Part shown: positions 14,316 to 25,407 of the stretch, piece after piece
Layout: each line of letters starts with the position of its first letter
Position numbering within the stretch: position 1 is the stretch's first letter
Assembly (NCBI RefSeq): GCF_003426815.1
Contig: NZ_QKYK01000015.1
Span: 62,001 to 126,000, forward strand
From: Desertimonas flava
GTDB lineage: Bacteria > Actinomycetota > Acidimicrobiia > Acidimicrobiales > Ilumatobacteraceae
Direction of reading: 5' to 3'
DNA length: 64,000 nucleotides
The notes under the pieces: model-generated
What the model saw: only the letters and a program-made list of their open reading frames with translations
What the model was told of the DNA's origin: nothing
The model's database searches: none
Made by a program: the position numbers and the translations under genes

Positions 14316-15311
14316 TCAGTCGGTGTCGCCGGGTGGGGTCGTCGTCGCCACGCTGATGATCTCGCCGCCGTGCAGCACCGACACCGGACCGGCCGACGAG
14401 ACGGCGAAGACGACGGCGCTCGGTTCGTCGCGAGAGAAACGCCGGGCCGACGTGTGCCTGGTCCCCCTGTAGGCGGGCACGACGGCGACGGCCTCTTCGC
14501 TCCACCGCAACGCCACACCGATCCGGTCGACCCGCCCCCCGGGCGACACGAGCGCCGCCCGATCGGTCTGGGCCAGGGCGTTGCGCAGGGCCGCGTAGTG
14601 CTGCCGCTCGGTCATCTCGAGTGGCGGGATGGCGACGCTGGCCCTGACGCCCAGGTGACTCGGCGAGCCGGTGCCTTCGGTCTGCCACACGAGCAACGCG
14701 CCGACGCGGCCGGCGCTCAGCCAGTGGACACAGAACTCGGTGAGCCCGTCGAGGACGGGCGAGAGCAGCTCGGGCCGGGCGGCCCTGATCGTGCGGGCGA
14801 GCTGGCTCGCCAGGGGCTTGGACCACCAGCGGGCGCCGTCCCAGGTGATGACGGCGTTCGGCGCGAACACCCGGATCGAGCCGGTGTACTGGCGTTGGAC
14901 CACGGTGATGCCGGCGCTCGTCGCCACCTGCACCGCGGTCGCTTCGTGCTCGATCGTCCGGTCGAACGACACCAGGGCGACCACACCGTGATCGTGCCGG
15001 GCGATGAACGACGTGCGGCCGTCGGCGAGTCTCCGGACGACGTCGTGGTCGATGTCGGTGATCTCGACCAGGGCGGGGAAGCCCAGCCGCGCCGGATCGA
15101 TCACCTCGTCGGGGACGATGAGCGCCCCGAAGACCGGGGAGACGCCCTCGTGGGTGTGGGGGAAGCGGGCGTAGTCGAGTTCCTCGATGAGCGCCTCGCC
15201 GGAGGCACCGTCGAGGTCGATCGGGACGTCGGCATCGAGCAGTTCCTCGCGCAGGCGCCGCAGTCGACGTCGCCGGCGTTCGCCCGCCGTCTCGGGAGCT
15301 GGGTGCGTCAT
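14316..15311 (-). CDS. Diadenylate cyclase (DAC/DisA_N)-like protein with altered catalytic motifs
   Basis: The 331-residue protein has a C-terminal domain (about residues 200-325) that follows the DAC fold. The order is a strand-DRA-strand region (250-252), LRWSEEAVAVVPAYRGTRHTSARR (TRHT at 284-287), then SAVVFAVSSAGPVSVLHGG. In c-di-AMP synthases the motifs are DGA and RHR; here they are DRA and RHT. The N-terminal ~200 residues are not recognised. They hold a second alpha/beta region (FPALVEITDIDHD ... RHDHGVVALVSFD) that may be a sensor of the DAC-associated kind. Whether it makes c-di-AMP is open. The start is ATG 15311 or ATG 15320; neither has a convincing ribosome binding site. Confidence 0.65.
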   Translation of the reverse strand: MTHPAPETAGERRRRRLRRLREELLDADVPIDLDGASGEALIEELDYARFPHTHEGVSPVFGALIVPDEVIDPARLGFPALVEITDIDHDVVRRLADGRTSFIARHDHGVVALVSFDRTIEHEATAVQVATSAGITVVQRQYTGSIRVFAPNAVITWDGARWWSKPLASQLARTIRAARPELLSPVLDGLTEFCVHWLSAGRVGALLVWQTEGTGSPSHLGVRASVAIPPLEMTERQHYAALRNALAQTDRAALVSPGGRVDRIGVALRWSEEAVAVVPAYRGTRHTSARRFSRDEPSAVVFAVSSAGPVSVLHGGEIISVATTTPPGDTD

Positions 15312-15340
15312 GCGACCCATTGAACGCCGAAATCGGCGCC

Positions 15341-15383
15341 GCGATGAGCCTGACCCGCTCATCGTGCGGGCCAGGCTCATCGC
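15341..15383. terminator. Hairpin after the aldehyde dehydrogenase gene (GCGATGAGC family)
   Basis: Two 18-base arms (15341-15358 and 15366-15383) pair with one G/A mismatch around a 7-base loop. It lies 10 bases past the stop of the minus-strand aldehyde dehydrogenase and before the DAC-like gene. The first nine bases of the arm, GCGATGAGC, are shared with the hairpins at 4949 and 23498. No T-tract is present. Confidence 0.6.
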
Positions 15384-15392
15384 GAGCGCTGC

Positions 15393-16841
15393 TCAGAGTT
15401 GCAGGGACTTCGTCTCGAGGAACTCCTCGAACCCGTGGCGGCCGTACTCCCGGCCGTTGCCCGACTGCTTGTAGCCGCCGAACGGCGCATTGGCGTTGAA
15501 CGCCCCGCCGTTGATCTCCACCTGGCCGGTGCGCAGGCGCCGGGCCACGGCGACGGCACGGTCCTTGTCGGCCGACCACACACCTCCCGACAGGCCGTAC
15601 ACCACGCCGTTGGCGATGCGGACGGCATCGTCCTCGTCGTCGTAGGGGAGGATCGACAGCACCGGCCCGAAGATCTCCTCCTGGGCGATCGTCATCTCGG
15701 GCGTGACGCCGGAGAACACGGTGGGCCGGACGTAGTAGCCGGTGTCGAGCCCTTCGGGGGCTCCCGGACCACCGGCGACCAGCGTGGCGCCCTCGTCGAT
15801 GCCCTTGGTGATGTACCCCTGCACGCGGTCGCGCTGGGCGGCCGAGGCGAGCGGTCCGAGGTGGACGCCCTCTCCGAACGGGTCGCCCACGACGACACGC
15901 TCGACGGCCGCCGCAGCGACCTGCTCGGCCTCGGCGAGCCGGTCCCGGGGCACGAGCATGCGGGTGAGGGCCGAGCACGTCTGGCCGGAGTTGAGGAACG
16001 CCTTCTGCACCCCGTCGCCCACCGCCTTGGCGAAGCCCTCGGTGTCGAGGTCGTCGAGCAGCACGTTGGCGGACTTGCCGCCGAGCTCGAGGGCGACCCG
16101 CTTCACGGTTTCGGCGCCCACCTGGGCTACGCGGGTGCCGGCGCGGGTGGAGCCGGTGAACGACACCATGTCGACGTCAGGGTGGCGAGCGATCGCCTCG
16201 CCGACCACCGGGCCGACACCGGACACGAGGTTGAACACGCCGGCGGGGAGCCCGACCTCGGCGATGATCTCGGCGAGGATGAACGCGTCGACCGGAGCGA
16301 CCTCGCTCGGCTTCAGCACGACGGTGCACCCGGCGGCGATGGCGTAGGCGGCCTTGGCAGCGATCTGGTGGAGCGGGTAGTTCCACGGCGTGATGCAGCC
16401 GACGACGCCGATGGGCTCGCGGACCACCAGCGAGTTGCCGACCGTCTCCTCGTACTGGTAGCTCTCGGCCAGCGCGGCGGCCGACTTGAAGCTGTTGATG
16501 GGCAGACCGACCTGCACGAGCTTGGAGAGCCACGTGACCATGCCCGTCTCCTTGGAGATCGCCGTGGCGATCTCGTCGGTGCGGGCGGCCAGCGCGTCGC
16601 CGATGCGGCTCAGGTACTTGGCCCGCTCCTCGACGGGAGTGGAGGACCACGACTCGAACGCGGCGCGGGCCGCAGCGACCGCCCGGTCGACGTCCTCGGC
16701 CGTGCCGGCCGGGATCGTCGCCATCACCTGCTCGGTGACCGAGTCGACCACGTCGAGCGTCTCGGTGCCCGACGACGCCACCCACGCGCCGTCGATGAAC
16801 AGCTTGTCGAATGCCTTCACGGCGCTCTCTGTCTGTGTCAT
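15393..16841 (-). CDS. Aldehyde dehydrogenase family protein, NAD(P)+-dependent
   Basis: A 482-residue aldehyde dehydrogenase, the normal family length. It has [11 protein letters not shown] (cofactor entry), KPSEVAP, the glycine motif FTGSTRAG, the general-base Glu in [10 protein letters not shown] and the nucleophilic Cys in NSGQTCSA, followed by EEIFGPVL and the C-terminal [17 protein letters not shown] 16841 follows GAAGGGA at good spacing. It is soluble. The substrate is not apparent. It is flanked by a terminator hairpin downstream and has about 100 bases of free upstream sequence, so it is probably monocistronic. Confidence 0.9.
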
Positions 16842-16944: not shown

Positions 16945-17118
16945 TCAGGAGAGCCAGAGCTGCCGGACCACGATCACGGCGGCGACGACCGCGAGCGCGG
17001 CCGCCTCCTTCCACATCACGTGGCGCTCGGCTCGTCGGCTGTCGTCGAGGTCGTCGGGATACTCGGAGACCTCACCGGGGAGGCTCGGCGGGAGCGACGG
17101 ACCGGTTGGATCACTCAT
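16945..17118 (-). CDS. Small single-pass membrane protein at the end of the glycan operon
   Basis: A 57-residue protein with a hydrophilic, Pro/Asp-rich N-terminus and one C-terminal membrane segment (AAALAVVAAVIVVRQLWL). ATG 17118 forms an ATGA overlap with the stop of the glycosyltransferase, so it belongs to the same translational unit. Not recognised as a known family. By position it could be an accessory subunit of the glycosyltransferase, as small membrane partners occur with several processive synthases, but this is inference. Confidence 0.6.
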   Translation of the reverse strand: MSDPTGPSLPPSLPGEVSEYPDDLDDSRRAERHVMWKEAAALAVVAAVIVVRQLWLS

Positions 17119-18599
17119 GAGCGCGCCGCGACCCCGCCCGACTTCACGGTCTTGTCCCACACCAGCTCAGCGTGGCGTGCTTCCTTGACGAAGCCGGTGA
17201 ACGTGATCGCGCACTGCAGCGGTCCGTAGCCGACGATCCACAGGAGCGCTCCGGCGAGCCGATGGTGGCCGGCCCGGTCGACCCGCCACACCAGGTACGC
17301 GGCGACCATGCAGAGCGACACCCAGAGGTACGCGGCGAGGGCGACCGCTCGCTCGATGCCGTCGGTGATGGACACACCCGTGACATCGGAGAACGTGTCG
17401 CGGAGGCCGTCATTCACCGGCGGGAACACGCTGCCGACGATGATCAACGCCGACACGAGTCCCGGGAACATGATCCCGCGCAGCCACGCCCGCCAGCCGA
17501 TCTCGGGGTCCACGAGCCACGTGAAGACGAGGAGGAACAGGAAGCTCAGACCGTTGGCGATCCACAACCACCGGAAGGCATCCTTCTCGAGGGAGGACTC
17601 CATCGCCCAGAGACCGACGAGCGCCGCCGACGAGGTGATCATCAGGATCGGCAGTGCCATGAGCGTGTACCACCAGAGTCCGAACAGGAGGCCGCCGAGG
17701 CGATGCGTCGGCGACGGCCGGAAGAACACCCGGTGGAAGCGGCGCGTGACTTGCACGTTGCCGCGGGCCCAGCGCAGGCGCTGCTTCCACACCCCATCGA
17801 CCGTGTCGGGCTCCTCGGCCCAGACGACGGCGTTGGGATCGAACACGACCTTGCGGCCCCCGAGCTGGGTGAGAAACGTCGTCACCGTGTCTTCGGCCAG
17901 CGTCGAGGTGTCGATCGCCCCGCCGATCGCCTCGAGGTTGGCCCGGCTGTGCAACTGGGCTCCGCCGGCCAGGCAGGCGAGGGCCCCGCCGACGTTCTGC
18001 GCCCGCCGGGCGATCGCCTGGGCGACGGTGTACTCGAAGGCGATCGTGAGACGGATCCCGTTCTTGTCGCCGCTGCCTTCCTTGATGTAGCCGGTGACGG
18101 CCCCGACCTCGGGGTCGGCGAGGTGACGGGTCAGCCGACGCAACGACGGCGGGGTGAACACGACGTCGGCGTCCATGATCAGCACGGCTTCGGCCCAGTC
18201 GTCCGCCAGCACATGGGCCAGCCCGTGGTTGAGCGTGTGGGCCTTGCCTTGGCCACCGTGCTCGCGGCGCAGGTGGACGACCGTGTCCGGATAGCGCTCG
18301 ATCATCGCGGCGAGGACGGCCGGCGTGTCGTCGGTGCTCGCATCGTCGACGACCACGATGCGCAGCCGGTCGATGGGGTACTCGAGGGCGACGAGGCGCT
18401 CGATCGTGTCGCGGAGCACCGGCGCCTCGTTCCACGCAGGGACGAGGATCGCCGTGCGGGGGAAGTACGGAGCGCTGCGGTCGAGGTGGCTGCGGTACCG
18501 GTGTCCTCCGACGATGAGCAGCTGGATCACAGCGACGACGTAGGGGAGCGCCCCGATCACGGCCACGACGACCAGGGCCCACTCGACCGTCCGGCTCAC
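17115..18599 (-). CDS. Processive family-2 glycosyltransferase, membrane-embedded
   Basis: The 494-residue protein has an N-terminal membrane segment (ALVVVAVIGALPYVVAVIQLLIV), a cytoplasmic GT-A domain (AILVPAWNEAPVL, VVVDDASTDDT, the DxD region IMDADVVF, a catalytic TLAEDT) and the QRLRW motif of processive synthases (hyaluronan, cellulose, poly-GlcNAc type). At least four C-terminal membrane segments follow. It would polymerise and extrude a glycan across the membrane. GTG 18599 overlaps the PHP stop as GTGA. The sugar is unknown. The nearby PIG-L deacetylase makes a GlcNAc-containing polymer a reasonable guess only. Confidence 0.82.
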   Translation of the reverse strand: MSRTVEWALVVVAVIGALPYVVAVIQLLIVGGHRYRSHLDRSAPYFPRTAILVPAWNEAPVLRDTIERLVALEYPIDRLRIVVVDDASTDDTPAVLAAMIERYPDTVVHLRREHGGQGKAHTLNHGLAHVLADDWAEAVLIMDADVVFTPPSLRRLTRHLADPEVGAVTGYIKEGSGDKNGIRLTIAFEYTVAQAIARRAQNVGGALACLAGGAQLHSRANLEAIGGAIDTSTLAEDTVTTFLTQLGGRKVVFDPNAVVWAEEPDTVDGVWKQRLRWARGNVQVTRRFHRVFFRPSPTHRLGGLLFGLWWYTLMALPILMITSSAALVGLWAMESSLEKDAFRWLWIANGLSFLFLLVFTWLVDPEIGWRAWLRGIMFPGLVSALIIVGSVFPPVNDGLRDTFSDVTGVSITDGIERAVALAAYLWVSLCMVAAYLVWRVDRAGHHRLAGALLWIVGYGPLQCAITFTGFVKEARHAELVWDKTVKSGGVAARS

Positions 18600-19363
18600 G
18601 GAGGCGCGCCCGCGGCGGTCTCGTCGACGGCCTGTTCGGCAGTCACGTCGGCGGTCAGGTGGGCGAGCGTGCTCGTCACGTAGTCGTAGCGGCCGACCCG
18701 CTGCTCGTGGTGGGCGTCGGTGCTCATCGTGATCGGCACGCCCTCGCCCACGAGCAGGTCGACGACCCGGCGAGACGGGCACGACCACTTCTCGTTCACC
18801 TCGACCACGGCCCCGTGGCGTACCACCGCCTGACCGATGCGTCGCACCAGCGCATCCGGCACCTGGTCCTCGTGGAGGCCGCACTTGGGCAGGATGCTGA
18901 ACAGGTGAGCGACGATGACCCGGTCGTAGCAACCGAGGGCGTTGACGGTGGCCTCGACGAGGTCGGCGATCACCTCGTCGGTCGAGAGCTCGTGCTCGGC
19001 GAGCAGCGCCTCCGCGTCGCGCGGATGCATCGGGCCGTCGGGACGGGGGAGCTGGTGATCGGCGACGAGCACGTAGTCGAGCGTCGGCATGTCGGCCGGC
19101 ATGTCCATCAGCCCGCTGGTGTCGAGGATCTTGGCCTCGACCCCGCACAGCACCCGCAGCCCCGAGTGGCCGTCGAGCGCGCGCACCGCGTCGACGAACG
19201 ACGGCACCCAGTCGGTCGAACGACGGACGTGGTCCACCATGCCGAGCGTGTGCAGACCGTGCCCGGCCGCCGACGCGAGGTTCTCGTCGATCGTGCTCGC
19301 ACCGTCGGAGAACGTGGAGTGCACGTGGAGATCGGAATGGCGGTCCAGTCGGGGAAACGTCAT
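18596..19363 (-). CDS. PHP-domain metal-dependent phosphoesterase
   Basis: The 255-residue single-domain PHP protein has metal-ligand motifs in order: DLHVHSTFSDG (9-20), GMVDHV, CGVEAK, LVADHQ, IVAHLF and the C-terminal STDAHH. PHP proteins include histidinol phosphatase, PolX-type phosphoesterases and the capsule-system protein-tyrosine phosphatases. In a glycan operon a phosphatase role on a sugar phosphate or a regulatory phosphotyrosine is plausible but unproven. ATG 19363 overlaps the ATP-grasp stop as ATGA, and its stop overlaps the glycosyltransferase start as GTGA. Confidence 0.8.
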   Translation of the reverse strand: MTFPRLDRHSDLHVHSTFSDGASTIDENLASAAGHGLHTLGMVDHVRRSTDWVPSFVDAVRALDGHSGLRVLCGVEAKILDTSGLMDMPADMPTLDYVLVADHQLPRPDGPMHPRDAEALLAEHELSTDEVIADLVEATVNALGCYDRVIVAHLFSILPKCGLHEDQVPDALVRRIGQAVVRHGAVVEVNEKWSCPSRRVVDLLVGEGVPITMSTDAHHEQRVGRYDYVTSTLAHLTADVTAEQAVDETAAGAPP

Positions 19364-20370
19364 CGGGCGACCACCGATCGGTCGAGAAGTTCGCTGGGAT
19401 CGAAGTAGGTCTCGGTCCACGTCCGCACCATCGCCAGGGCCCGGATGGGTACGTCGGCGGGGACGTCGCGACCGAGCACGTCGGCGACCGCGAGCACCGG
19501 CATGTCGGCGCCGGCGGCGATGGTGAGCGGCATGCTGCCCGGGAACCGGGGATTGACCTCGAGCAGCCGTGGGGCACCGTTCGCCGCCTGTTTCACCTGC
19601 ACGTTGGCGACCGACGTGAGCCCGAGTGCCTGGGCCACCCGCCGCCCGTAGGTGATGAGGTCCTCGTCCGGATCGACCGTGCCGGCGACGGCGATCCCGG
19701 AGTCGACCTTCAGCCGCGACCGGGGGACGACGGCGGCGACGTGGCCGTCGCGGTAGGCCAGGACGTCGAGGGAGTGCTCCAGTCCCGGCAGCAGTTCCTG
19801 CACGATGTACGAGCCGTCCCGGGGCAGTGAACGCGTCCCCCCCGCAGTCTCGACGAGGGTGACGCCGCGGCCGCCACTGCCGAGCCGCGGCTTGGCGATC
19901 GCCGGAAACGACCACGTCGTGTCGTCGAACCCGTCGTCGAGCACGGCGGTTGCCGGCACCTCGACCACCCCGGCGCACGATCTGAGCACCGTCCACTTGT
20001 CGAGGCAACGCTCGAGCGTCTCCACGGACGATCCGAGCACCTTGGTGCCGCGGGCTTCGAACTCAGTCGTCGCCCTGGCGACGGGGAGCAGTTCGACGTC
20101 GACCGTGGGCACGAGCACGTCGATGCCCCACTCGCCGCACCGCTCGGCGACGACGTCGACGAACTCGGCGGAGTCACCGCGAGGGACGAGCGCTCGTCGG
20201 TCGGCGCCGACGAGGTACAGCCCGGCCGCGTACGGATCGATGTCGACGGCCCAGACCTCGGCGCCGGCGCGATGCACCGACTGCATGAACGCCACGGCCG
20301 CCGGGCCGCCGGCGCCGGTGACCGCGATCCGGACGCCGGAGAGGTCGGTCGGCGACGGGGCGTCAGACAC
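19360..20370 (-). CDS. ATP-grasp family ligase
   Basis: The 336-residue protein has an N-terminal pre-ATP-grasp Rossmann-like region (IAVTGAGGPAAVAFMQSV). The ATP-grasp fold then shows a lysine-bearing AKPRLGSGGRGV loop, QELLPGLEHSLDVLAYRDG and the metal-binding LEVNPRFPGSMPL (Glu and Asn ligands). It resembles carbamoyl-phosphate-synthase-like/PylC-like ATP-grasp ligases, which activate a carboxylate as acyl phosphate for amide or ester formation. GTG 20370 overlaps the upstream stop by 8 bases. In this operon it could attach an amino acid or other acid to a sugar or lipid, but the substrate is unknown. Confidence 0.8.
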   Translation of the reverse strand: MSDAPSPTDLSGVRIAVTGAGGPAAVAFMQSVHRAGAEVWAVDIDPYAAGLYLVGADRRALVPRGDSAEFVDVVAERCGEWGIDVLVPTVDVELLPVARATTEFEARGTKVLGSSVETLERCLDKWTVLRSCAGVVEVPATAVLDDGFDDTTWSFPAIAKPRLGSGGRGVTLVETAGGTRSLPRDGSYIVQELLPGLEHSLDVLAYRDGHVAAVVPRSRLKVDSGIAVAGTVDPDEDLITYGRRVAQALGLTSVANVQVKQAANGAPRLLEVNPRFPGSMPLTIAAGADMPVLAVADVLGRDVPADVPIRALAMVRTWTETYFDPSELLDRSVVAR

Positions 20371-21430
20371 TGGCCGTGGCCCTCTGCGGGCGGGCGAAGC
20401 GCCGGCTGCTCGAGCGGTCACGGACCACCTCCAGCGGCTCGCAGTACCTCGCGTCGCCGAAGCGGCCCCAGTAGCGGCCGGTGGATCGGATCAGCTCGGG
20501 ATCCAGGTAGGCCCTCGTCTCGGTCTGCGTGCGGTACGAGGCGATCACGTCGAGCTTCTCGTCGATGTGGGGCTCGATCGACGCGAAGCGGGCCGGGTGG
20601 AAGTCGACCGTCGCCGATGGGCTCTCGTAGCAGTAGACCCCGGGAACACCACGCGCGGCGACCAGCGTGGCACGGTGGACGTTCCGGTGATCCTGGTGCA
20701 CGTCATGGACGGTGTGCGTGTACACGATCGTCGGCTGGAACTCGGCGATCACCCGCTCGATGATGCCCACCGTCGGGTCCGACTCCGGAATGCGCGTGTC
20801 CTCCAGGTCCTCGAGGACGAGGCGGGCGCCGAGGATCGCGGCGGCCTGGGCCGACTCCTCGGCGCGCCGGCCCTGATCTCCGCCCCGACTCCCGCGACTC
20901 ATGGTGAGCACCGCGGTGATGTCGCCGGCGTCGCGGTGGGCGAGCAGGATGCCACCGACGCCGATCTCGACGTCGTCGGGGTGGGCGCCGATGGCCAGCA
21001 CCCGTTCGGCCGCGTCGTTGCGCCGCGCCTCGGCCACCTGCAGCAGTCGCTCGACCTGGCGGGCCAGCTGGTCGGGAGCCACCGGCTTGGCGAGGAAGTC
21101 GTCGACCTGGCTGCGCAGGGCGCGGACGGCGACGTCCATGCTCGCGTCGGCCGTCGTCAGGGCGATCGGGATCGCCGGCCACCGTTCCTTGATCTCCGTG
21201 ACGAGATCGAAACCGGACCGCCCCGGCAGGCCGATGTCGACGAGGAGGGCGTCGATCGGCGTGGTGACGAGGACGTCGATCGCGTCGGGAGCCGAGCCTG
21301 CTGTGGTCACCCGGTACTCGGCGCGTTCGAGCGCCCGTGCGAAATACGTCGCGGTCGCCTCGTCGTCCTCGACGACCAGCACATGCCGCGGATTCCGCCG
21401 TACCGGCGGATGCTCCCCGTCGGTCACCAC
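20363..21430 (-). CDS. Response-regulator receiver fused to PIG-L-type N-acetylglucosaminyl deacetylase
   Basis: The protein has 355 residues from GTG 21430. Residues ~15-130 are a receiver domain (HVLVVEDDE acidic pair, phospho-acceptor Asp65 in LLVDIGLPG, Lys115 in FLAKP). Residues ~140-300 are a LmbE/PIG-L zinc amidohydrolase with AHPDDVE at 149-155 and HDVHQDHRNVH at 242-252. Family members remove acetyl groups from GlcNAc-containing compounds. The domain order implies that phosphorylation controls the deacetylase directly rather than DNA binding. The probable partner kinase is divergent at 21513. A TATTGT hexamer 8 bases before GTG suggests a nearly leaderless mRNA. It is the first gene of the coupled operon. 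Confidence 0.85.
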   Translation of the reverse strand: MVTDGEHPPVRRNPRHVLVVEDDEATATYFARALERAEYRVTTAGSAPDAIDVLVTTPIDALLVDIGLPGRSGFDLVTEIKERWPAIPIALTTADASMDVAVRALRSQVDDFLAKPVAPDQLARQVERLLQVAEARRNDAAERVLAIGAHPDDVEIGVGGILLAHRDAGDITAVLTMSRGSRGGDQGRRAEESAQAAAILGARLVLEDLEDTRIPESDPTVGIIERVIAEFQPTIVYTHTVHDVHQDHRNVHRATLVAARGVPGVYCYESPSATVDFHPARFASIEPHIDEKLDVIASYRTQTETRAYLDPELIRSTGRYWGRFGDARYCEPLEVVRDRSSSRRFARPQRATASV

Positions 21431-21512
21431 AGACGTCAACAATAGCCAACAGCGACTACTTCTCCAGCCGCATCGCGCTATTCGGCCGAGAAATCTGATC
21501 GACTAGGAACCT

Positions 21513-23495
21513 ATGGGTCCGCCGCCCTCCTCAACAGACGCGCCAGCGTCGTCCCGTCCGCGTACCGCCCGCAAGATGCGCTGGTGGTGGAACCTCCCCC
21601 TCCGCCGGAAGGTCTCCGTACTGGTCATCGTGCCGGCACTGGCCATGGCGATTCCTGCGGCCTACGCGATCGCGCTGAACCATCGTCAGGAGACGACACG
21701 GGAGCATGCTCGCGAGATCCAACGCCTTCGCGACCAGGGGTTCGATCTTGCGGTCGACACCGTCGTGTCCGACATCGGCGTCCTGCGGTACGTGCTGTCC
21801 GAGGACGCCACCGACCTCGAATCCCTGGACCGCCTGATCGCCGGGCACGATGCCGCGATCGCGGAACTCGACGAGGGTCTCGGCGACGACCTGCAACCGG
21901 CGGTCGAGCGGGTCGCCGAACGGCTGGACACCTACATCGAGGCGAGCTCCGAGGTCCGTGATGCGGCCAGCGGACCGTCACCGGTCCCTGATCGGATCCT
22001 GCAGCAGCTACGGGTGGCGGCGGACGAGGTGGCCCGCGAAGTGGGTGATCTGATCGCCGTGCTCGAGGGGGATCTCCAGCAGGCCCGAGCCGACATCGAC
22101 GCCGCCAGCAGGTCGGTGCTGATCGCTCTGGTCACCGGCATGGTCGCCTCGCTGCTCCTCAGCTCGATCGCCCTGATGGTCTTCGTGCGCAACTTCGTGA
22201 AGCGCATCCGGGAGATGAAGGAGCTCGCCGCCCACGTCGTCGCCGGCGGTGATCTCGGCGACGTCGTGCCGGAGTCGCGCGACGAGCTCGGCGTGCTCGC
22301 GTCGGAGCTCGTCGACGCCGGGAAGCTGCTCATCTCGGCGAACGACGACATCGCTCGCAGCCGTGACGCCGCCCTCGCGGCGACCCGCGAGAAGGACGAG
22401 TTCCTCTCGCGGATGAGCCATGAGCTGCGGACGCCGCTCACCGCGATCTTGGGGTTCGGTCAGCTGCTCCAGCTCGAGGAGCGCCTGCACCAGGAGGATC
22501 GGGAGGCGATCGATCAGATCGTCAAGGCCGGCCGTCACCTGCTCGCGCTGATCAACGACCTGCTCGACATCTCGCGGATCGCCACCGGCCACCTGTCGCT
22601 GTCGCTCGAACCGGTCGTCGTCGGCGACGTGGTCGAGAGCGTCGCCGCCCTGCTCGCTCCTCAGGCCGCGGACCGGTCGGTGATGGTGTCGTCGACGGTC
22701 GACCCGGCCTTGGCCGTGACGGCCGATCATCAGCGCATCCGGCAGGTTCTGTTGAACCTGGTGTCCAACGCGATCAAGTACAACTCGACGCCCGGCACCG
22801 TCGTGGTCGCCGCCGAGCGCCAGGACTCGTCCGGCACCGTCGTGGTGAGCGTGACCGACAGTGGCCCGGGCATCAGCCGTGACGGGCAGGCCCGCCTGTT
22901 CCTGCCGTTCGAGCGGCTCGAGGCCACGAGTGCGATCGAGGGCACCGGCGTCGGTCTGGCCCTGTCGAAGTCGCTCGTCGAGGCGATGGGCGGATCGATC
23001 GGTGTCGACAGCGTGGTGGGGCGCGGGTCACGGTTCTGGGTCGAGTTCCAGGCAGCCGAGGCGCCCGCTGCCGCGGACCACGCGGTTCCGGAGGTGGAGT
23101 CGCGATCGGTCGTGGATCACCCGGCTGCCACCACCGTGCTCCTCGTGGAGGACAACCTCGCCAACGTGCGCGTCCTCGAGCGCTTCATGCGCGGTCGCGA
23201 CGAGCACCTCGAGGTGGCGATGCAGGGCGGCATGGCCGTCGAGCTCGCTCGCGAACTGCAGCCGGCGGCCGTGCTCCTCGATCTGCACCTGCCCGACATC
23301 AACGGCGACGAGGTGCTCGCCATGCTGAAGAACGACCCGCGGACGGCGGAGGTCCCGGTGATCGTGCTCTCGGCCGACGCCACCGACGGTGGTCGCCGCC
23401 GGCTCCTCGAGGCGGGCGCCGCCGACTACCTCACCAAGCCGATCGACCTCGAGCGCCTCGGGCGCGTCCTCGACGGACTGGGGGCGACGATCTGA
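21513..23495 (+). CDS. Hybrid sensor histidine kinase
   Basis: The 660-residue membrane kinase has a first membrane segment at ~34-55, an external helical sensor region of ~150 residues (CHASE3-like by length and composition), and a second membrane segment at ~201-225. A HAMP linker follows, then a HisKA box with His303 in MSHELRTPLT and an HATPase (N box NLVSNAIKYN, G1 VTDSGPGIS, G2 GTGVGLALSKSLVEAMGG). The C-terminal receiver has its acceptor Asp in VLLDLHLPDING. The divergent neighbour is a receiver-deacetylase fusion, its likely output. No HPt domain is encoded here, so phosphotransfer to the deacetylase would be direct or through a distant protein. Confidence 0.9.
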   Translation: MGPPPSSTDAPASSRPRTARKMRWWWNLPLRRKVSVLVIVPALAMAIPAAYAIALNHRQETTREHAREIQRLRDQGFDLAVDTVVSDIGVLRYVLSEDATDLESLDRLIAGHDAAIAELDEGLGDDLQPAVERVAERLDTYIEASSEVRDAASGPSPVPDRILQQLRVAADEVAREVGDLIAVLEGDLQQARADIDAASRSVLIALVTGMVASLLLSSIALMVFVRNFVKRIREMKELAAHVVAGGDLGDVVPESRDELGVLASELVDAGKLLISANDDIARSRDAALAATREKDEFLSRMSHELRTPLTAILGFGQLLQLEERLHQEDREAIDQIVKAGRHLLALINDLLDISRIATGHLSLSLEPVVVGDVVESVAALLAPQAADRSVMVSSTVDPALAVTADHQRIRQVLLNLVSNAIKYNSTPGTVVVAAERQDSSGTVVVSVTDSGPGISRDGQARLFLPFERLEATSAIEGTGVGLALSKSLVEAMGGSIGVDSVVGRGSRFWVEFQAAEAPAAADHAVPEVESRSVVDHPAATTVLLVEDNLANVRVLERFMRGRDEHLEVAMQGGMAVELARELQPAAVLLDLHLPDINGDEVLAMLKNDPRTAEVPVIVLSADATDGGRRRLLEAGAADYLTKPIDLERLGRVLDGLGATI

Positions 23496-23497
23496 CG

Positions 23498-23539
23498 GGC
23501 GATGAGCCTGGCCGGCGGGAGGCGCCGGCCAGACTCGCC
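23498..23539. terminator. Hairpin between convergent kinase and leuA genes (GCGATGAGC family)
   Basis: Starting 3 bases after the kinase stop, CTGGCCGGCG pairs perfectly with CGCCGGCCAG around a 5-base loop. The stem extends outward imperfectly through GATGAG/CTC. The left arm begins GCGATGAGCCTG, the same bases as the hairpin at 15341. It serves convergent genes and so is probably bidirectional. Confidence 0.6.
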
Positions 23540-23552
23540 GCGTCCGGCTGCG

Positions 23553-25407
<1,855 letters not shown>

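Follow-up and report, generated by a model that had tools for sequence, protein, structure and literature searches.

A receiver–PIG-L fusion heading a conserved, translationally coupled operon in Desertimonas flava: a possible signal-gated amino-sugar glycan pathway

For the amino-sugar glycans of bacteria, the control known so far is mostly transcriptional or exerted on the synthase by second messengers. The operons for poly-N-acetylglucosamine (PNAG; pgaABCD and icaADBC) contain a membrane glycosyltransferase of family 2 (GT2) with a QRxRW motif, a small transmembrane partner, and a deacetylase of N-acetylglucosamine (GlcNAc). The mycothiol and bacillithiol pathways (MshA-MshB-MshC and BshA-BshB-BshC, respectively) follow the logic of a glycosyltransferase, a PIG-L deacetylase, and an ATP-using ligase, while response regulators with an enzymatic output carry a receiver followed by an enzyme. 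In this work, a stretch of 64,000 nucleotides (nt) of Desertimonas flava (contig NZ_QKYK01000015.1, positions 62,001 to 126,000; hereinafter, the window) was analyzed, which harbors a five-gene operon for a receiver-PIG-L protein, an ATP-grasp ligase, a PHP-family metallophosphoesterase, a membrane GT2 synthase, and a small single-transmembrane protein. The parts are all members of known families; their combination is new, no described equivalent having been found in the literature searched. The search, conducted mostly outside subscription papers, retrieved no paper on a PIG-L/LmbE protein paired with a response regulator, a receiver, or an output domain, nor on the set PIG-L deacetylase, ATP-grasp enzyme, and glycosyltransferase, in keeping with a first-pass annotation of the window that knew of no described system with this exact set. 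We propose, with a probability of about 0.5, that the operon encodes a membrane pathway for an amino-sugar glycan, gated by a signal, in which the deacetylase would be the output of a two-component system.

The open reading frames (ORFs) and their frames were read directly, families were assigned by means of Pfam and NCBIfam, and hydrophobic segments were located by hydropathy. The five genes occupy the minus strand from 21442 to 16945, in the following order: the receiver-PIG-L gene (20363..21442; TTG start, with GTG codons in the same frame at 21433 and 21430 as alternatives), the ATP-grasp gene (19360..20370; GTG start), the PHP gene (18596..19363; ATG start), the GT2 gene (17115..18599; GTG start), and the gene for the tail-anchored protein of 57 residues (16945..17118; ATG start). 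Successive genes overlap by 8, 4, 4, and 4 nt (ATGA between ATP-grasp and PHP), so that the overlaps of 4 to 8 bases and the small membrane protein with its stop at 16945, both pointed out in the first-pass annotation, are confirmed. The same is true for the divergent hybrid histidine kinase that it had placed at 21513: the gene (21513..23495, plus strand) encodes a protein with HisKA, HATPase_c, and C-terminal Response_reg matches in Pfam, whose two strongest hydrophobic helices are at residues 36-54 and 202-220, and for which no Pfam match to an Hpt domain was obtained. The kinase gene and the operon are separated by 70 bp (21443..21512), which presumably carry divergent promoters.

The genome searches covered one phylum and were run on samples of 397 genomes from the order (taken out of a larger set), 346 from the phylum, and 247 from the class. 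Using the receiver-PIG-L protein as query, 21 of the 397 genomes gave a match at E ≤ 1e-25; both domains were matched in six of them (G000, i.e., the window's own genome, G110, G726, G608, G605, and G043), and PIG-L only in the other 15. The same query gave matches in five of the 346 genomes, with both domains in two (G000 and G043), and a profile of the glycosyltransferase reached E ≤ 1e-70 in this sample only in G000 and G043; G110 and G605 were evidently outside the sample, since their glycosyltransferases give matches far better than this threshold. The complete gene order recurs in three other genomes, that is, G043, from the same family as the window, and G110 and G605, from two other families. 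In G110 (locus L102), a single contig carries the divergent kinase (41% identical to that of the window) followed by receiver-PIG-L (61%), ATP-grasp (59%), PHP (67-71%), GT2 (59%), and the small protein. In G043 (L103), the same order is found on one contig, with identities of 45% (receiver-PIG-L), 47% (ATP-grasp), 48-49% (PHP), 55% (GT2), and 41% over 37 aa (small protein). In G605, receiver-PIG-L, ATP-grasp, and the start of PHP lie on a 3063-bp contig and the rest of PHP, GT2, and the small protein on another, so that the contiguity of an operon split inside PHP can only be deduced. With start codons chosen by us in the relatives, the overlaps are 14, 4, -7 (a gap), and 4 nt in G110; 20, 4, 4, and 4 nt in G043; and 20 and 4 nt on the first contig of G605, and the small gene overlaps GT2 by 4 nt in all four operons. 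With the same order and the same kind of coupling present in further genomes, the arrangement is more than chance: these data support a single coupled operon and not an accident of one strain. Conservation outside the strain, on which the first-pass annotation had staked its proposal beforehand, is thus borne out.

The receiver-PIG-L protein is composed of a receiver (Response_reg, E = 2.4e-24; residues 21-130) and of a PIG-L domain (E = 1.5e-23; Pfam match at residues 149-262), the latter scoring 84 bits against a Pfam cut-off of 28. The metal and base residues expected for PIG-L/LmbE enzymes (HxDD plus a histidine; roles according to PMC4101496) are intact, in the form of HPDD and HQDH, and the protein is a predicted sugar N-deacetylase; the score against the bacillithiol deacetylase BshB1 model of NCBIfam (TIGR04001) is 71.2 bits, below the cut-off of 182.5. 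On the receiver side, the phospho-acceptor site (D69, T97, and K119) is invariant in all six receiver-PIG-L proteins. Pfam matched no DNA-binding family, so that the protein resembles the response regulators with an enzymatic output, from which it differs in that the output is a predicted sugar N-deacetylase. The fusion of the receiver to the deacetylase, together with this lack of a DNA-binding family, points to a control of enzyme activity. The PIG-L/LmbE enzymes covered by a review (PMC4101496) act on GlcNAc glycosides, lipid-linked GlcNAc, or antibiotics; the same review reports that in MshB the change of His144 to Ala leaves at most 1% of the activity and that Asp16 is a metal ligand. The correspondence of these MshB residues with those of the PIG-L proteins of the window and its relatives was established by us by motif. 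The window's own genome contains 11 PIG-L domain matches. Judging from the title of one paper (PMC12613277), a PIG-L gene of Clostridioides difficile is reportedly linked to biofilm formation.

The operon had been placed under a two-component system in the first-pass annotation, and this linkage held, since all six full-length receiver-PIG-L genes adjoin two-component genes, albeit of two kinds. The divergent adjacent kinase is homologous in G000, G110, G726, and G608 (38-41% identical to that of the window), and its H, N, and G boxes are invariant in the four proteins; no C-terminal receiver was matched in the G608 kinase. In G043, an OmpR-type regulator gene and the gene for a PAS kinase are located upstream on the same strand. 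Upstream in G605, at the contig edge, lies the end of a regulator gene, whose product shares 64% identity over 132 aa with the G043 regulator.

Genomes G726 and G608, belonging to the same genus, keep the kinase and the receiver-PIG-L gene (L132 and L133, respectively), and no match to ATP-grasp, PHP, or GT2 was found within 15-16 kb around the pair (ATP-grasp was not searched genome-wide). In addition, PHP was found in neither genome at E ≤ 1e-6, and GT2 was not found in G608 at E ≤ 1e-20, with only a 32% match in G726. The PIG-L motifs read HPDD...HQDH in all four operon-bearing genomes, HPDD...RADH in G608, and HPDA...RKDH in G726; hence, the histidine of HQDH is replaced by arginine in both, and the second aspartate of HPDD by alanine in G726. 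In the PIG-L tree (31 rows, one match per locus; of the eight paralogue loci of G000, L008 was dropped, having no profile match), the six receiver-PIG-L proteins form one clade (100/99), in which the G608/G726 pair is nested next to the window protein (98/92), inside a group with G110 (97/94). A long-branch warning concerned the paralogues and W_L131; the receiver-PIG-L clade was not among the flagged rows. Since the pair nests inside operon-bearing lineages, the change of the active site looks derived, and the simplest reading of these sequences is a loss of the other enzymes accompanied by a decay of PIG-L catalysis. A changed site where the other enzymes are not adjacent would tie the deacetylase chemistry to the operon, although as statistics this is weak. 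The persistence of kinase and receiver-PIG-L despite a broken PIG-L site also bears on a different explanation, i.e., that the fusion serves mainly in signaling, as a phosphate sink or a protein-protein switch, and that its neighbors are an unrelated biosynthetic operon coupled by chance; the gene for a solute-binding protein that follows the kinase in G608 would be in line with it. This explanation appears improbable, given that the PIG-L site is intact in all four operon genomes, that the overlaps are conserved, and that PIG-L genes are found near GT2 genes without any receiver in nine of 15 loci (see below). The solute-binding protein of G608 (L133) is of family 5, and a permease-like gene, recognized by eye, also follows the kinase on the same strand.

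The GT2 synthase (Glyco_tranf_2_3, E = 3.7e-32) possesses a single hydrophobic segment near the N-terminus and, across the four orthologues, four or five toward the C-terminus, and its motifs D85-D86, D143-x-D145, E236-D237, and Q273-R-L-R-W277 are invariant in all four orthologues; the QRLRW recognized in the first-pass annotation is thus located at residues 273-277. The protein shows the complete signature of processive GT2 enzymes (D, DxD, ED, and QRxRW plus a transmembrane domain), and ED and QRxRW align with those of BcsA. The small protein, which matches no Pfam family, has a hydrophobic C-terminal helix; in all four genomes, R(Q/A)xW is followed by just one or two further residues at its end. 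A possible, albeit doubtful, explanation is that the operon encodes an extruded-polymer synthase similar to those of PNAG or cellulose, in which the glycosyltransferase polymerizes and secretes the chain, and PIG-L and the other enzymes modify this chain, or a precursor of it, by trimming or decoration. In favor of it, no NCBIfam model scores higher than the PNAG synthase PgaC/IcaA with the window GT2 or with any of the six other glycosyltransferases scanned, and the small partner is reminiscent of PgaD/IcaD. However, the PgaC/IcaA matches are always below the cut-off (TIGR03937, 133.1 bits for the window protein vs. 422.3), and so is that with cellulose synthase BcsA (TIGR03030, 61.7 vs. 699.1 bits); moreover, Pfam revealed no PilZ match in the window GT2, and the operon has no exporter. 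Among solved structures, the sequence nearest to GT2 is that of 6yv7 (E = 3.4e-25; a family 2 glycosyl transferase); in the alignment, the ED and QRxRW motifs are missing from it, whereas BcsA has both. 6yv7 is presumably the crenarchaeal mannosyltransferase with a minimal cellulose-synthase-like fold that figures, by title, in the reference list of PMC8993221; according to the latter paper, attempts to verify the mannosyltransferase function by experiment did not succeed. Unlike the PNAG operons, that of the window adds an ATP-grasp and a PHP gene and a fused-receiver input, and its deacetylase is a PIG-L protein with no visible export signal, while the PNAG deacetylase is an exported enzyme of carbohydrate esterase family 4, acting outside the cell. 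The claim of the first-pass annotation that such a glycosyltransferase is processive and makes an extruded polymer can therefore be retained as plausible for its motifs and best model only, in view of the score of 133 bits against 422.

Other loci bear on the same explanation. On an Escherichia coli plasmid (L161:8959-12157), the genes for PIG-L, GT2, an acetyltransferase, and the YaiO barrel are arranged in a row, resembling the chromosomal yaiS-yaiP-yaiO; a second E. coli plasmid carries PIG-L, acetyltransferase, and YaiO genes, with an unannotated gap between them. Like the window, the first plasmid combines a PIG-L gene (35% identical over 202 aa) with a membrane GT2 gene, here directly beside it, but no receiver, ATP-grasp, PHP, or kinase gene is listed there, an outer-membrane barrel is present, and the glycosyltransferase is only 26% identical over 221 aa. 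The PIG-L protein of L141 matches 34 plasmid records, 27 of which are from Escherichia. In G110, the kinase gene is followed on the same strand (L102:2843-5861) by the genes for an MBOAT O-acyltransferase and for a protein of glycoside hydrolase family 5 (GH5), which would also suit a polymer. The arrangement is that of polysaccharide acetylation loci, and the start of the GH5 protein resembles, by eye, a lipoprotein signal. The two genes were considered as core parts of the system and rejected on the distribution of MBOAT; no search was made for GH5.

The two remaining enzymes belong to broad families. The ATP-grasp protein matches ATPgrasp_Ter (E = 1.6e-28; 99.5 bits vs. a cut-off of 29.1) and, in its N-domain, PylC-like_N (E = 4.1e-11; 43.3 vs. 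27 bits), and is predicted to be a ligase of the acid-amine class. The PHP protein (E = 3.6e-10; 40.8 vs. 26.4 bits) displays, in an alignment of three sequences, the HxH and DxH metal motifs of the family. Among the 247 genomes of the class, 85 have some PHP match at E ≤ 0.001, and only the proteins of G000, G110, and G043 stand far above the others. A separate scan of contigs disclosed 63 loci from many named groups, whose PHP proteins show best-segment identities of 25-55%; the flanks are short in many cases, and the scan may have omitted records close to the genome of the window. No match to ATP-grasp, GT2, the small protein, or receiver-PIG-L was detected in them by tblastn at E ≤ 1e-8; kinase-domain matches were present in two (L009 and L038) and an aldehyde dehydrogenase match in one (L030).

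The four enzyme classes of the operon have their counterparts in mycothiol synthesis, which uses a glycosyltransferase, a phosphatase, a PIG-L deacetylase, and a ligase. It might then be supposed that the product is a small molecule or a lipid-linked compound, similar to mycothiol or glycosylphosphatidylinositol, with the glycosyltransferase forming a GlcNAc glycoside, PHP dephosphorylating it, PIG-L freeing the amine, and ATP-grasp adding an amino acid. The substrates of the PIG-L enzymes covered by the review mentioned above are of this type, and in the NCBIfam ranking of the four orthologous GT2 proteins the second or third place is taken by MftF, which carries the annotation of mycofactocin glycosyltransferase. 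On the other hand, the processive signature of GT2 is intact and the protein contains a membrane domain, whereas the mycothiol (and bacillithiol) glycosyltransferase is a soluble GT4 and the ligases of these pathways are not known to be of the ATP-grasp type.

Further evidence on both sides comes from 15 receiver-free PIG-L loci (13 of the 17 receiver-free matches of the 397-genome search plus two from the phylum search), several of which are cut by contig ends. A GT2 homologue is near PIG-L in nine of them (on the other strand in L145), an ATP-grasp gene in six (some 5 kb away in L135), and both UDP-GlcNAc 2-epimerase and HAD hydrolase genes in four, two of which are of one genus. These four loci (L130, L135, L140, and L141, in G063, G673, and the congeneric G671 and G227) share a wider cluster of PIG-L, GT2, ATP-grasp, epimerase, and hydrolase genes, homologous to those of the window for PIG-L (40-41%), GT2 (33-35%), and ATP-grasp (34-38%), and differing in the lack of a receiver and of a PHP relative, with the HAD hydrolase and the epimerase instead; no PHP relative was found at E ≤ 1e-6 in G063, G671, G227, G673, G647, and G419. 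A hydrolase in a cluster with no PHP relative speaks for a mycothiol-like route, while the epimerase suggests a cell-envelope glycan. We regard a small-molecule or lipid-linked pathway of this kind as possible, albeit doubtful. PIG-L, ATP-grasp, and GT2 genes are also in a row on an Arthrobacter plasmid. In G673 (L135:5675-7939), GT2 and PIG-L share a reading frame, but the linker contains an ambiguous base; a one-protein fusion is thus possible and is not claimed. In G647 (L138) and G830 (L136), the coordinates place the two matches in different frames.

Returning to the signal-gated amino-sugar pathway, the GT2 synthase and its small partner would work from the cytoplasmic face to build a glycan or glycolipid of the GlcNAc type; N-acetyl groups would be stripped by the PIG-L domain off an intermediate on the cytoplasmic side, either ahead of its export or in the course of it; the ATP-grasp enzyme would join a carboxylate (an amino acid or similar) to the freed amine; and the PHP enzyme would take off a phosphate. 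The signal would regulate how active the deacetylase is, by way of a phosphorylated receiver fused to it, and would not operate through transcription. The plasmid and receiver-free loci that combine PIG-L with GT2, and the MBOAT and GH5 genes of G110, also count in favor of this pathway. The sequences show the domains and their catalytic motifs, the coupled gene order and its conservation, and the changed PIG-L site where the other enzymes are not adjacent; the substrates, the order of the steps, the gating and its direction, and the phosphotransfer are what we infer. The GT2 signature favors a polymer as product, while, by analogy, the known PIG-L substrates favor a cytoplasmic-side intermediate; a polymer with a deacetylated precursor or a lipid-bound start would fit both. 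The first-pass annotation had proposed a surface-polymer system with a cytoplasmic deacetylase: the coupled operon stands, but a cytoplasmic PIG-L could not readily reach a chain extruded during its synthesis, and a pre-export, lipid-linked, or small-molecule substrate appears at least as likely as an extruded chain. A more specific version can be advanced tentatively: the phosphorylated receiver may switch the charge of a membrane glycan (free amine vs. acetamide) without transcription, the ATP-grasp enzyme capping the amine with an acyl or aminoacyl group, to give an undescribed surface or lipid glycan.

Several observations weigh against the signal-gated pathway. The system is rare, the full-length receiver-PIG-L protein being present in six of the 397 genomes of the order, and the kinase partner varies, with OmpR-type regulator genes upstream in G043 and G605 instead. 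Six of the 15 receiver-free loci have no GT2 homologue, ATP-grasp, epimerase, or HAD gene nearby (with the contig ends mentioned above cutting several). The window GT2 falls short of the cut-off for each of the NCBIfam families listed, and the operon contains no exporter or porin gene. AlphaFold, run without alignments, gave a mean pLDDT (predicted local distance difference test) of 43.1 for the window GT2 and 34.9 for receiver-PIG-L. The G726 genome is only 67% complete, and the active-site change is statistically weak because it concerns one lineage. Lastly, MBOAT is near the operon in G110 only, since no relative was found at E ≤ 1e-20 in G000, G043, and G605, and those of G608 and G726 are on other contigs than receiver-PIG-L.

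Behind the operon, the Pfam scan identified an aldehyde dehydrogenase gene (15393-16841), which sits between the operon and a minus-strand gene (14316-15380) for a protein with DACNK and DAC matches, i.e., a probable sensor plus a DisA-type nucleotide-binding domain; neither protein has a glycan or export family match in Pfam. Beyond the kinase, the plus-strand ORF 23502-25382 was rejected as a downstream gene, having no Pfam or NCBIfam match and being opposed by the minus-strand ORF 23553-25265, which has a stronger coding signal.

If the proposal is true, the deacetylating enzyme would itself be the phosphorylated effector, and this would make a direct biochemical test possible, in which receiver phosphorylation is compared with deacetylase activity. 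The genus retaining the pair without the adjacent enzymes, and with a broken PIG-L site, may represent a natural experiment linking the two, and the wider receiver-free cluster may offer another route to the product.

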